A stretch of 45,697 nt of DNA from Nocardioidaceae bacterium (GCA_025934895.1 JAICWH010000008.1:1-45697); one strand, 5' to 3'; counted from the stretch's first letter, positions 29,481 to 33,564 are shown. Notes: a model not told the origin generated them from the sequence alone. Numbers and translations: made by a program.

Positions 29481-29562
29481 GACGCCCGGGGCCTGAGACG
29501 GCCGGGGGCCTGAGACGCCGAGGTGCCTGAGCCGCCCGGGGGCCTGAGCCGCCCAGGCCTCA
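29476..29562. repeat. 17-bp repeat array between two convergent genes
   Basis: Five units beginning CCTGAG(A/C)CG, at 29476, 29492, 29509, 29526 and 29543, fill the whole gap between the PrmC-like gene and bioN. The first unit holds the TGA stop of the upstream gene and the last borders the stop of bioN. GGCCTG (29541-29546) can pair with CAGGCC at 29554-29559, so the array might act as a two-way transcription block. Confidence 0.75.
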
Positions 29563-30165
29563 GTCGTCGAGGCCGCGGGCGGTCAGCGCCTCGCCGAGGG
29601 CATCCGCGTGCCGCAGCGACCGGACGATGAGGGGTACGGCGAACGCGCGCGGGCTCGCGCCCAGGCCCCGGGCCAGCTGCGCGTCACGGACCTCCTCGGC
29701 GAGCCCCGCCACGACCGGCACGCACCGGATGCCCAGGGCGATCAGCAGCCCGATCCGCTCGGGGTCGACCCGCAGCACCCGCAACGGCCGGCAGCCGGTG
29801 ACCACGGCGTCGACCAGGTCCGTCGTACGCGTGGTGAGGGTGACCAGGGACGCGAGCAGCACCAGCGCGGCCAGCACCCCGACCACGACGCCGGCCCGCT
29901 CCCAGCCGTTGACCACCACGTGGAAGACCGCCGTGAAGCCGAGGATCCAGACCAGGGGGCGGAGCTGGCCCAGCGCGACACGCACGGGGAGACCGGCGAC
30001 GGGGTACCCGGCGAGCACCGCCGCGAGTGCGGCGGCGACCTGCCACGGACGGTCGAGGAACACCGAGAGCACGCCGACAGCGACCATGGCGAGCAGCTTG
30101 GTCCCGGCCGGCAGCCGGTGCAGCACCGAGGACCCGGGGACGTAGAGGCCGATCGTGCTGGTCAC
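29560..30165 (-). CDS. bioN: Biotin ECF transporter transmembrane subunit EcfT/BioN
   Basis: Coupling membrane subunit of the energy-coupling-factor transporter (CbiQ/BioN family), 201 aa with four to five hydrophobic segments. The two coupling motifs with Ala-Arg-Gly are visible: AQLARGLGASPRAF and ALTARGLDD at the C-terminus; they contact the ATPase. The GTG start overlaps the ATPase stop as GTGA. Assigned to biotin because bioY heads the operon. Confidence 0.88.
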   Translation of the reverse strand: MTSTIGLYVPGSSVLHRLPAGTKLLAMVAVGVLSVFLDRPWQVAAALAAVLAGYPVAGLPVRVALGQLRPLVWILGFTAVFHVVVNGWERAGVVVGVLAALVLLASLVTLTTRTTDLVDAVVTGCRPLRVLRVDPERIGLLIALGIRCVPVVAGLAEEVRDAQLARGLGASPRAFAVPLIVRSLRHADALGEALTARGLDD

Positions 30166-30842
30166 GTCATCAGCGTCCGGTAGTGCCGCACTGCTGCGGC
30201 GGGCGCGTCGTCGAGCACCAGCCGTCCCTCGTCGAAGACCAGCACCCGGTCGAAGCCGTCGAGGAGGTCGAGGTGGTGGGTGACCAGGAGCACCTGCTGC
30301 GGGAGCCCTGCGACGACGCGGGCGACCAGCTGGGCGTTCCTGAGGTCGAGCAGGGTCGTCGGCTCGTCCATCACCAGCAACGCCGGTTCGGTCACCAGGA
30401 CCGAGGCCAGCGCCAGCATCTGCTTCTGGCCGCCGGACAGCAGGTGCGCGGGATGGTCCTGGTAGCCGCCCAGTCCGTAGGCGACCAGGGTCTTCTCGAC
30501 GCGGGAGCGGGCGTCGGCCTTGGCCATCCCTCGACGCCGCAGCCCGAACGCGACGTCCTCCGCCACGGTCGGCATCACGATCTGGGCGTCCGGGTCGGTG
30601 AAGCAGAAGCCGACCCGGCGGCGCACCTCACGACCCTGCGACCGCGTGTCCAGACCGTCCACCGTGACCCGTCCCGCGCTGGGGAGCACCAGGCCGTTGA
30701 GCAGCCGGGCGAAGGTCGACTTGCCGGAGCCGTTGGCTCCCACGACGCCCACGCGCTGCTCCTCGAGCCGGACGGTGACCTCCGAGAGCACGGTCCGCTC
30801 GCCGTAGCGGTGGCTGACCCCGACCGCCTCGATCACCGGCAT
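30162..30842 (-). CDS. bioM: Biotin ECF transporter ATPase EcfA/BioM
   Basis: 226-aa ATPase with Walker A GANGSGKS (about residues 33-40), Q-loop DPDAQIV typical of ECF ATPases, signature LLSGGQKQML, Walker B LLVMDEPTTLLD and switch His in VTHHLD. Its ATG start (30842) lies within the last 10 nt of the thiolase gene. Only one EcfA is present, as in the BioMNY systems of actinobacteria and proteobacteria. Confidence 0.92.
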   Translation of the reverse strand: MPVIEAVGVSHRYGERTVLSEVTVRLEEQRVGVVGANGSGKSTFARLLNGLVLPSAGRVTVDGLDTRSQGREVRRRVGFCFTDPDAQIVMPTVAEDVAFGLRRRGMAKADARSRVEKTLVAYGLGGYQDHPAHLLSGGQKQMLALASVLVTEPALLVMDEPTTLLDLRNAQLVARVVAGLPQQVLLVTHHLDLLDGFDRVLVFDEGRLVLDDAPAAAVRHYRTLMT

Positions 30843-31978
30843 CGCTCGACCACCATGGCAACCCCCTGGCCGCCGCCGACCGCGATGGCCGCCAACCCGT
30901 ACCGGCCGCCGTCGGCGCGCACCAGCTGCGAGAACAGCCGGACCAGAAGCACCGCGCCCGACGCCCCCCACGGGTGGCCGAGCGCCAGCGCGCCGCCCTC
31001 CACGCAGACCCGCTCGGGGTCGAGCGACAGTGCGTCGCAGCAGGCGAGCACCTGGCCGGCGAACGCCTCGTTGACCTCGATGACGTCGAGGTCGGCCAGG
31101 CTCAGCCCGGCCGCGGCCAGTGCCTGCTCGGTGGCCGGCACCACGCCCAGGCCGGGGAGGTTCGGGTCGACGCCGGCGGTGGCCGCGGCGAGCACCCGCA
31201 GGCCGGGTACGTCGAGCCGCCGGTGCGTTTGCGCGTCGACCAGGGCGACCACCGCCGCGCCGTCGTTGACCCCGCAGGCGTTGCCGGCCGTGACGGTCCC
31301 GCCCTCCGCCGCGGCCCGGAAGGCCGGCCGCAGGCGGCCCAGCCGCTCGAGGCCGAGTCCGACACGGGGCCGCTCGTCGCGGGACACCCCGTGAACGGGG
31401 ACCACCTCGGTGTCGAAGCCGCCCGCGTTCCGCGTTGCCACGGCGAGCGCGTGCGAGCGCGCGGCATAGGCGTCCTGGCGGGCCCGGGACACCCCGGCCT
31501 TCTCCGCCAGCAGGTCGGCGGCGTAGCCCATGTCCGGGTCGCCGATCCCGGCCGGTGCGAACGGCGCCCGGTCGTAGCGAACCGGCGGGTCGCCGGGCCA
31601 GAACCGCAGCGGAGCGGTCGAGACCGACTCGACACCGCCGGCGAGGACGACGCCCGAGGAGCCCCGCAGGAGGGCGACGCCGACCTCCACGGCGGCGAGG
31701 CCGGAACCGCACTGCCGGTCCACGGTCAGAGCCGGTACGTCGACCGGCAGACCCGCGGTCAGGGCGGCGACCCTGGCCACGTTGCCACCCGGGCCCATGC
31801 AGTTGCCCAGCACCACGTCCCGCAGCGGCTCGTCGGGCAGCTCGCCGCCCACCGCCGAGAGGACGGGCGCCGCGAGGTCCGCCGCCGGCACCCGCGCCAG
31901 GGCCCCTCCGGCGGTGCCGATGGGCGCGCGGAGCGCCGCCACCACGACGGGTGCCTCGGACCGGGGATTGGCGCTCAC
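30833..31978 (-). CDS. Thiolase-family acyltransferase lacking the second catalytic cysteine (YhfS-like)
   Basis: 381-aa thiolase. Conserved: nucleophile Cys90 (VDRQCGSGL), NEAFA near residue 303 and His335 (GGALALGHPWGASG). Not conserved: the C-terminal cysteine that acts as base in thiolases; the usual CIGGGQG reads AVGGGQG, with Ala366 at that position. The gene is embedded between an AMP-ligase and the biotin ECF ATPase and overlaps the latter by 10 bp. B. subtilis yhfS (acetyl-CoA acetyltransferase-like) holds the same place in the BirA-controlled yhfUTS operon. Role in biotin precursor or fatty acid turnover is inferred. Confidence 0.85.
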   Translation of the reverse strand: MSANPRSEAPVVVAALRAPIGTAGGALARVPAADLAAPVLSAVGGELPDEPLRDVVLGNCMGPGGNVARVAALTAGLPVDVPALTVDRQCGSGLAAVEVGVALLRGSSGVVLAGGVESVSTAPLRFWPGDPPVRYDRAPFAPAGIGDPDMGYAADLLAEKAGVSRARQDAYAARSHALAVATRNAGGFDTEVVPVHGVSRDERPRVGLGLERLGRLRPAFRAAAEGGTVTAGNACGVNDGAAVVALVDAQTHRRLDVPGLRVLAAATAGVDPNLPGLGVVPATEQALAAAGLSLADLDVIEVNEAFAGQVLACCDALSLDPERVCVEGGALALGHPWGASGAVLLVRLFSQLVRADGGRYGLAAIAVGGGQGVAMVVERCR

Positions 31979-31988
31979 CTCGTGAACG

Positions 31989-32978
31989 CTAGACCAGCCG
32001 CCGCGCCCTGCCTCCGTCCCCGGACAGCAGTGAGACCAGCGCCTGGCGGTCCACCTTGCCCGCTGCGGTCTGCGGAAGCGGGTCCAGGTGGAACCAGAGC
32101 CGGGGGCGAGCGGCTCGAGCCAGCTCGTCCTTGGCCACGGCGACCAGCTCCGGGTGGTCGGACGCGCTGGTCAGCACGACGGCCAGCAGCATCCCCCAGG
32201 TCTGGTGGGGGAGCCCGACCACGCTGACCTGGCCCGCGGCGCGGGCGGCCAGCGCGCTCTCCACCTCCGCGAGGCAGACGGTGCTGCCGCCGACGGTGAC
32301 CGCACCCGGGCGCCCGGTCACGGTCAGCCGGCCGTCCCGGAGCACGCCGGTGTCGCCGACGGTGGCGAAACCGTCCCCGCTCCGGCGCAGGGGGCCGGGC
32401 GGTCCGTCGTACCCGGCGCAGAGGTACGGCGAGCGCGCCCACACCTCCCCGCCGCGGACCGCCACCTCGACCCCGGGGAAGGCGCGGAGGTCCTCGACGT
32501 GCGACCCCCAGGCGACGAACGAGAGCTCGGCCGCCCCGTAGTAGTGGTGCACCCGGGCTCCGGCCGCCGCCGCGCGGTCGTGCAGGGCCGGGGACAGCCG
32601 GTCGCCGGCCACCACGACGGTGGTGCCCTCCAGCGGCAGGTCCTCGTCGAGGGCCCGGGTCAGCGTCGAGGGGGTCAGGTGAGCATGCGTCGCGGAGCCG
32701 GCGTCGTCGACGAGGACGGCCGAGACGGAGACGGTGTGCACCGCCGCGAACAGGTTCATGGTCGCGCTCAGCGGGCCGGGCACCCAGACCAGCGACGACG
32801 AGGAGAGACGGGTCAGCTCGGTGACCGCCGGGAACGAGGAGGTCCACGACTCCGTCGTGCGCGTCACCCAGCGGCCGGCGCCCGAGGTGCCGGACGTGGG
32901 GAGGGCGACCGGGACGCCGTCCGCCCGGGCGGCCAGGAAGCCGGCGACGGAGGAGACCCGGCGCGGGGGCTCAGACAG
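31989..32978 (-). CDS. Short AMP-binding acyl-CoA ligase-like enzyme in the biotin uptake operon (YhfT-like)
   Basis: Adenylate-forming enzyme: ALPTSGTSGAG (P-loop, about residues 25-35), HHYYGAAELSFVAW, GDTGVLRDGRLTVTGR (hinge) and AAGKVDRQAL with the catalytic Lys near 308. At about 329 aa it lacks the roughly 130 residues usually before the P-loop, like short MenE-type ligases. The frame has no ATG/GTG/TTG between the bioY 3' end and the P-loop. The best start is CTG at 32978, with GGGAG 7 nt upstream, overlapping bioY by 8 bp. An ATG at 33131 deep in bioY gives an implausible N-terminus. Substrate unknown; pimelate or a longer acid is a guess. Confidence 0.75.
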   Translation of the reverse strand: MSEPPRRVSSVAGFLAARADGVPVALPTSGTSGAGRWVTRTTESWTSSFPAVTELTRLSSSSLVWVPGPLSATMNLFAAVHTVSVSAVLVDDAGSATHAHLTPSTLTRALDEDLPLEGTTVVVAGDRLSPALHDRAAAAGARVHHYYGAAELSFVAWGSHVEDLRAFPGVEVAVRGGEVWARSPYLCAGYDGPPGPLRRSGDGFATVGDTGVLRDGRLTVTGRPGAVTVGGSTVCLAEVESALAARAAGQVSVVGLPHQTWGMLLAVVLTSASDHPELVAVAKDELARAARPRLWFHLDPLPQTAAGKVDRQALVSLLSGDGGRARRLV

Positions 32979-33564
32979 TGCTGCGCTCCCGTGCGCTCCG
33001 CCTACCGCTGCCCAGCAGTCCCGGGTAGGCCGCGTGCACTCCGCGCGCGACGACTGCGGCCACGACCACCTTGACCGCGTCCCCGGGGAGGTAGACCCAC
33101 GTCGCCACCAGGGCCGCCTCCACCGACACACCGGTGACCGCGGCCACTCCGGCGATGCCGAACGCGTAGAGCACGATGATGCCGCCGACGACGTTGGCCA
33201 CCAGGCCCCAGCTCACCCGGTAGGTCGCGCCGCCCCGCTCGGTCAGCCAGCCGACGACGTACGCCGCGACGGGCCAGCCGACCAGGAAGCCGACCGACGG
33301 GCTGGCGAACACGCCGAGGCCGCCGCGGGGTCCGGCGAGCAGCGGGAGACCCACGGCGACCAGTACCAGCAGCAGGACCACTGACAGGGCGCCGCGGCGC
33401 GCGCCTATCACGGCGCCGGCGAGGATGACGCCGAGGGACTGCGCGGTGATCGGGACGGTGAACCCCGGGGGCAGGAACGCGGGGACCAGGCCGAGGGCGG
33501 CGACGACCCCGGTGAAGGTCGCGATCAGCGCGAGGTCACGCGAGGTGGATCGGGGGGCCGGCAT
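32971..33564 (-). CDS. bioY: Biotin transporter substrate-binding subunit BioY
   Basis: Membrane S-component that binds biotin, 197 aa, six hydrophobic helices. Family signatures visible: VPITAQSLGVILAGAVIGARRGALS, LPLLAGPRGGLGVFASPSVGFLVGWPVAAYVVG and PGDAVKVVVAAVVA. First gene of bioY-ligase-thiolase-bioM-bioN. It starts 7 nt after a TAGACT box, so it is likely transcribed independently of the upstream peptidase gene. Confidence 0.93.
   Translation of the reverse strand: MPAPRSTSRDLALIATFTGVVAALGLVPAFLPPGFTVPITAQSLGVILAGAVIGARRGALSVVLLLVLVAVGLPLLAGPRGGLGVFASPSVGFLVGWPVAAYVVGWLTERGGATYRVSWGLVANVVGGIIVLYAFGIAGVAAVTGVSVEAALVATWVYLPGDAVKVVVAAVVARGVHAAYPGLLGSGRRSARERSTV

Follow-up and report, generated by a model that had tools for sequence, protein, structure and literature searches.

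A ligase and a thiolase-fold protein encoded within a predicted biotin-import operon of a Nocardioidaceae bacterium: a candidate acyl relay with relatives in Bacillota

Five genes, bioY, ligase-like, thiolase-like, bioM and bioN, follow one another in that order on the minus strand at 29560-33564 of the window, by which we mean the whole 45,697-nucleotide stretch of Nocardioidaceae DNA that was analysed (GCA_025934895.1, JAICWH010000008.1:1-45697). Our best overall reading of this locus, which we put forward tentatively, is an import operon that also encodes a ligase-thiolase acyl relay, probably acting on a biotin-related acid.

Operon layout and transport genes

The initial annotation had described five packed or overlapping genes, an arrangement confirmed by coordinates and Pfam matches. 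Neighbouring genes overlap by about 8 nt (bioY/ligase), 10 nt (thiolase/bioM) and 4 nt (bioM/bioN), and a gap of 10 nt separates ligase and thiolase. The features to which we refer are as follows.

32971..33564, minus strand: bioY, ECF biotin transporter S component, 197 aa (Pfam BioY PF02632, 118 bits)
31989..32978, minus strand: short YhfT-type adenylate-forming ligase, ~328-329 aa (AMP-binding_C), with a probable CTG start at 32976-32978
32055..32057, minus strand: codon of the A10 lysine (TAAGKVDR), required for adenylation (K307 of P0001, invariant in 21/21 actinobacterial rows)
30833..31978, minus strand: YhfS-type thiolase-fold protein, 381 aa, without the catalytic Cys378 (Pfam Thiolase_N 171 bits, Thiolase_C 123 bits)
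31709..31711, minus strand: codon of the nucleophilic Cys (= Cys89), motif DRQCGSG, kept in 49/49 ligase-linked thiolases
30974..30976, minus strand: codon of the active-site His (= His348), motif GHPWGASG, kept in 49/49 ligase-linked thiolases
30881..30883, minus strand: codon at the Cys378 position, here Ala (AIAVGGGQG), placed by motif comparison
30162..30842, minus strand: bioM, ECF ATPase (ABC_tran; top NCBIfam model ECF_ATPase_1, under its cut-off)
29560..30165, minus strand: bioN, ECF T component (CbiQ family PF02361, 64.6 bits)

Pfam matches to BioY, ABC_tran and CbiQ thus fall within one gene set, and from family membership BioYMN is predicted to be a biotin transporter; its bioY is the sole BioY of the genome. 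The same BioY-BioM-BioN importer is encoded by bioYMN of Corynebacterium glutamicum, an auxotrophic host in which transport has been demonstrated experimentally (PMC3398298). Unlike the window, C. glutamicum has neither ligase nor thiolase between bioY and bioM. A search of the window against Rfam revealed no known RNA family. A gene for a neutral zinc metallopeptidase (PF04228; 33575-34474, minus strand) ends 10 nt before bioY; as such a gene also adjoins the locus in one relative (L036) and lies near it in another (L033), it may be co-transcribed with the operon.

The ligase and the thiolase-like protein

The window ligase is short: compared with a typical acyl-CoA ligase, its N-terminal part is missing. 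A GTG at 33131 lies 160 nt within bioY in a different frame and is probably not used as its start; apart from this codon, no ATG, GTG or TTG was found upstream of the P-loop. The likely start is the CTG at 32976-32978, which overlaps the bioY stop codon and is preceded by GGGAG, and a CTG-led Leu-Ser occurs at the same place in L033 and L036. The top NCBIfam model is PRK07638 (YhfT type), matched over part of its length at 91 bits, below the cut-off of 518. The alignment places in the window ligase the P-loop, the YGxxE motif, the A7 Asp, the A8 Arg and the A10 Lys; in its subgroup the P-loop lysine is substituted and the A8 hinge loop is shorter by one residue. Its structure model (pLDDT 91.0) matches MenE-type ligases, and by both sequence and fold the closest solved structures are those of MenE, the o-succinylbenzoate-CoA ligase. 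The module ligases nevertheless make up a clade of their own and carry a YYGxxE-SF-type motif in place of the YGMTETxGGCV of the MenE type: in the ligase tree, a branch with an SH-aLRT value of 98 separates those of both phyla from MenE-like and other ligases.

The product of the adjoining gene matches the general thiolase family TIGR01930 above its cut-off (345 bits), and its second-best NCBIfam model is PRK06690 (YhfS), at 322.8 bits and under the cut-off of 498; its AlphaFold model (pLDDT 92.4) likewise matches thiolases. In thiolases, Cys89 is the nucleophile, Asn316 and His348 form the oxyanion hole, Cys378 is the base, and Met288 of the VMG motif fixes the size of the acyl pocket (PMC3406046). 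We compared 49 thiolases linked to the ligase (26 from Actinomycetota, 22 from Bacillota, plus Listeria) with 32 thiolases without it (the 12 nearest plus another 20 paralogues, many of them encoded in the same genomes). In 48/49 of the linked set an Ala, Ser or Gly takes the place of Cys378, which is kept in 32/32 of the others, a contrast that lacks independent replicates, the loss being a single event on a tree computed with the Cys378 column removed. Judged from this tree, the loss is a shared derived trait and not a repeated correlation. Met288 is substituted in all 49 linked proteins, and Asn316 is also missing in one actinobacterial group. From these residues, the condensation machinery of the ligase-linked thiolases appears to be decaying while the acyl-transfer machinery (Cys89, His348) is retained. 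That both genes are degenerating as pseudogenes is ruled out by dN/dS values of 0.08-0.19 for ligase and thiolase genes, which indicate maintenance by purifying selection.

The window protein is therefore very likely not a normal thiolase, and with the catalytic base gone, the label "acetyl-CoA acetyltransferase" given to YhfS-type proteins is very probably mistaken. If the standard annotation implied by the TIGR01930 match were nonetheless right, an ordinary beta-ketothiolase and an acyl-CoA ligase would degrade the biotin side chain or some other acid, and the link to bioY would be genome context only. This is extremely unlikely: the base is absent from nearly all ligase-linked members, the gene set includes no dehydrogenase or hydratase, and degradation would hardly be sensible for a biotin-repressed set in auxotrophs.

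A few sequences depart from the common pattern at position 378. The sole ligase-linked thiolase that retains Cys378 is that of Listeria grayi (L062:4690-7724), despite the BirA operator, bioY and ligase at its locus; the residue may be ancestral or a reversion. In four other thiolases (L263-L265, L050) a Cys stands one position before 378 (AACSIGGG, AACAIGGG, ATCGIGGG).

Relatives and distribution in two phyla

The B. subtilis operon yhfUTS (BioY-YhfT-YhfS), a single BirA-regulated transcript, comprises the same three families as the window, as the initial annotation had proposed; the BirA control that it mentioned is published (PMC4016012). Scanning for the palindromic operator of BirA led to loci in Bacillota. 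Downstream of this operator, Listeria grayi has bioY, ligase and thiolase arranged as in the window; the arrangement is also that of B. halotolerans and B. mojavensis, whereas Aneurinibacillus and Pelosinus have BioY-thiolase-ligase; a survey of Bacilli recovered the pair in 17 further genomes. The B. halotolerans YhfT scores 543 bits against the PRK07638 cut-off of 518, and its YhfS also passes its NCBIfam cut-off. The window ligase falls in the same clade as Bacillus YhfT, though under the YhfT model cut-off, and the window thiolase, also under the cut-off of its YhfS model, in the same clade as Bacillus YhfS, Cys378 being lost in both (Gly in B. halotolerans, Ala in the window). On the thiolase tree the ligase-linked proteins of both phyla cluster, with Listeria at the edge. 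The window pair thus almost certainly shares ancestry with Bacillus YhfT-YhfS. The two systems differ in that the window operon has bioM and bioN in addition and that its ligase of 328 aa lacks the N-terminal part of the ~480-aa yhfUTS enzyme. In Staphylococcus aureus, compared through the literature only, yhfS-yhfT bear the same enzyme names and are likewise under BirA and biotin control (PMC6391492); unlike in the window, they are separate from bioY.

The order to which the window belongs was sampled with 148 genomes. Of these, 21 encode a ligase homologue that scores above 130 bits, the MenE-like paralogues reaching at most 83 bits, and in 21/21 the thiolase adjoins it. All 21 module genomes also carry BioY, compared with 87/127 of the others. 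The pair lies within ~4 kb of bioY in 16/21 and ~10 kb away in a further genome (G084); in the remaining four (G096, G078, G114, G140) it is located elsewhere, and the genes around such unlinked pairs (LysE exporter, glyoxalase, MFS, ABC) suggest no common substrate theme. The association of ligase, thiolase and BioY in the order is not due to chance. The initial annotation had held that its proposal would fall if the two neighbours proved sporadic. They are indeed patchy, occurring in 21/108 BioY-bearing genomes of the order and in about 9 of the 199 of the phylum (the ligase clade being found in ~9/286 genomes surveyed), yet where present the module is coupled to biotin transport genes.

The window bioY falls within an actinobacterial BioY sublineage that bears the module and stands apart from most ordinary BioYs (support 86-94). 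A single module BioY lineage spanning both phyla is unsupported, the Bacillota and actinobacterial module BioYs showing no firm grouping.

Two variant operons were also seen. In G140 (L202:5566-8545) the order is BioY-thiolase-BioM-BioN, the ligase is absent and the thiolase copy has lost Cys89 (ERGRASG) and looks degenerate; an intact ligase-thiolase pair lies elsewhere in that genome. L267, from a genome estimated as 64% complete (G441), has BioY-ligase-BioM-BioN, a ligase-only version in which no thiolase was found; the ligase of L268, like that of L267, has no thiolase found adjoining it.

The biosynthetic capacity of the hosts bears on one proposed role. In the window's genome (assembly 99.9% complete, 247 contigs) neither BioA nor BioB gave a match above the curated family cut-offs. 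Across the 21 module genomes of the order, some of the surveyed assemblies being drafts, both are missing in 16, the window's included, and BioA exceeds its cut-off in just 3. Lack of BioB is more frequent with the module than among the other genomes (16/21 against 64/127; Fisher p = 0.03), a weak signal uncorrected for kinship. BioB was also not found in Listeria grayi and several pair-bearing Bacilli, and most of the Bacillota module genomes tested have it. A BirA-type biotin protein ligase is present in 27/27 module genomes tested, which rules out that the pair replaces this enzyme.

These counts speak against the synthesis of a pimeloyl-type precursor, the role first suggested for the pair. 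In Bacillota such a role would fit the repression of the pair by biotin along with the biosynthesis genes, and the presence of BioB in most module genomes tested there. It is contradicted for the auxotrophs: with BioA and BioB absent in most actinobacterial module genomes, the pair cannot serve generally to supply a pimeloyl precursor, and the loss of the thiolase base needed for Claisen condensation or thiolysis weighs further against it. We regard it as very unlikely.

Candidate roles of the pair

In the reading that we prefer, BioY-BioM-BioN would import biotin, and the same operon would encode a two-protein acyl relay. The YhfT-type ligase, as its conserved catalytic residues suggest, would use ATP to turn a carboxylic acid into an acyl-AMP. 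The YhfS-type homologue would then load the acyl group on Cys89, aided by His348, and hand it to an acceptor; from its sequence and known thiolase chemistry, normal thiolysis or Claisen condensation with acetyl-CoA would not be expected without Cys378. In the last and weakest step, the acid would be biotin or a close vitamer entering through BioY, which the pair would convert, trap or deliver.

For the first two steps there is precedent. According to a review of work on surfactin (PMC10988940, citing Kraas 2010), B. subtilis YhfT formed acyl adenylates and no CoA thioesters. PhlC, the Friedel-Crafts acylase of Pseudomonas protegens, is built on a thiolase fold and has the Cys and His, yet does not function as a thiolase; it transfers acyl groups via Cys88 and a conserved His (PMC6392133). 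It belongs to another subfamily and acts on phenols in the PhlABC complex, and its likeness to a YhfS-type protein is one of mechanism. Together with the ligase motifs, these cases lead us to infer a relay in which the acid becomes an acyl-AMP and its acyl group moves to Cys89 and on to the acceptor; we consider this relay somewhat better supported than not.

The identity of the acid is more doubtful. Because of the operon setting and the distinct BioY sublineage in Actinomycetota, which is moderately supported in the tree, a biotin vitamer is the likeliest acid, and a substrate of the biotin type is a possibility that we take seriously without leaning on it. Fatty acids are a real alternative: the work on YhfT used them (PMC10988940), and loss of yhfT lowers surfactin (PMC7960918), both of which point to fatty acyl substrates and away from a biotin-type acid. 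Also counting against our preferred reading are the pairs distant from bioY, the ligases without an adjacent thiolase, and the Cys378 retained in Listeria grayi.

The main rival, which we hold to be rather unlikely, is a biotin-sparing recycling of fatty acids. When low biotin slows acetyl-CoA carboxylase, the pair would activate free fatty acids and pass them to ACP or another acceptor, and lipid synthesis would require less malonyl-CoA. This proposal leaves unexplained the position of the genes between bioY and bioM and the linkage to a BioY sublineage. Dedicated fatty-acid activation enzymes are, moreover, already present in these bacteria, which counts against it as well. It accords with the occurrence of the pair in auxotrophs and prototrophs, with the repression by BirA and biotin of yhfUTS (PMC4016012) and yhfS-yhfT (PMC6391492), and with the finding that in S. 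aureus biotin limitation works mainly via acetyl-CoA carboxylase (PMC12642757); YhfT is also reported (PMC10988940) to donate fatty acyl-AMP to a carrier protein.

Salvage of a shortened vitamer is a further proposal. The ligase would activate, for example, bisnorbiotin; the Cys378-less enzyme would act like a KAS, catalysing a decarboxylative condensation with malonyl-CoA or malonyl-ACP that does not require Cys378; and the enzymes of fatty-acid synthesis would rebuild the biotin side chain. The Gly, Ala or Ser at position 378 is presumably of the kind expected there in KAS enzymes, which lends the idea some support, and it fits auxotrophs and prototrophs, biotin repression and the coupling to transport. 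We consider it quite unlikely all the same, since Asn316, part of the enolate oxyanion hole, is missing in one actinobacterial group, and our literature search found no paper on bacterial bisnorbiotin salvage.

Returning to the relay, a more specific form of it would be independent of CoA: the acyl-AMP of a vitamer supplied by a dedicated BioY lineage would pass directly to the Cys of the thiolase-fold acyltransferase. We think this form on balance improbable; if true, it would constitute a new biotin-salvage step common to Actinomycetota and Bacillota.

YhfT and YhfS were already counted among the members of the BirA biotin regulon in Bacillus and Staphylococcus, but their role there had not been explained. 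Whatever that role is, it must also serve organisms unable to make biotin, and the presence of the same pair beside biotin-import genes in Bacillus relatives points to a putative acyl-transfer step tied to biotin supply in two phyla.
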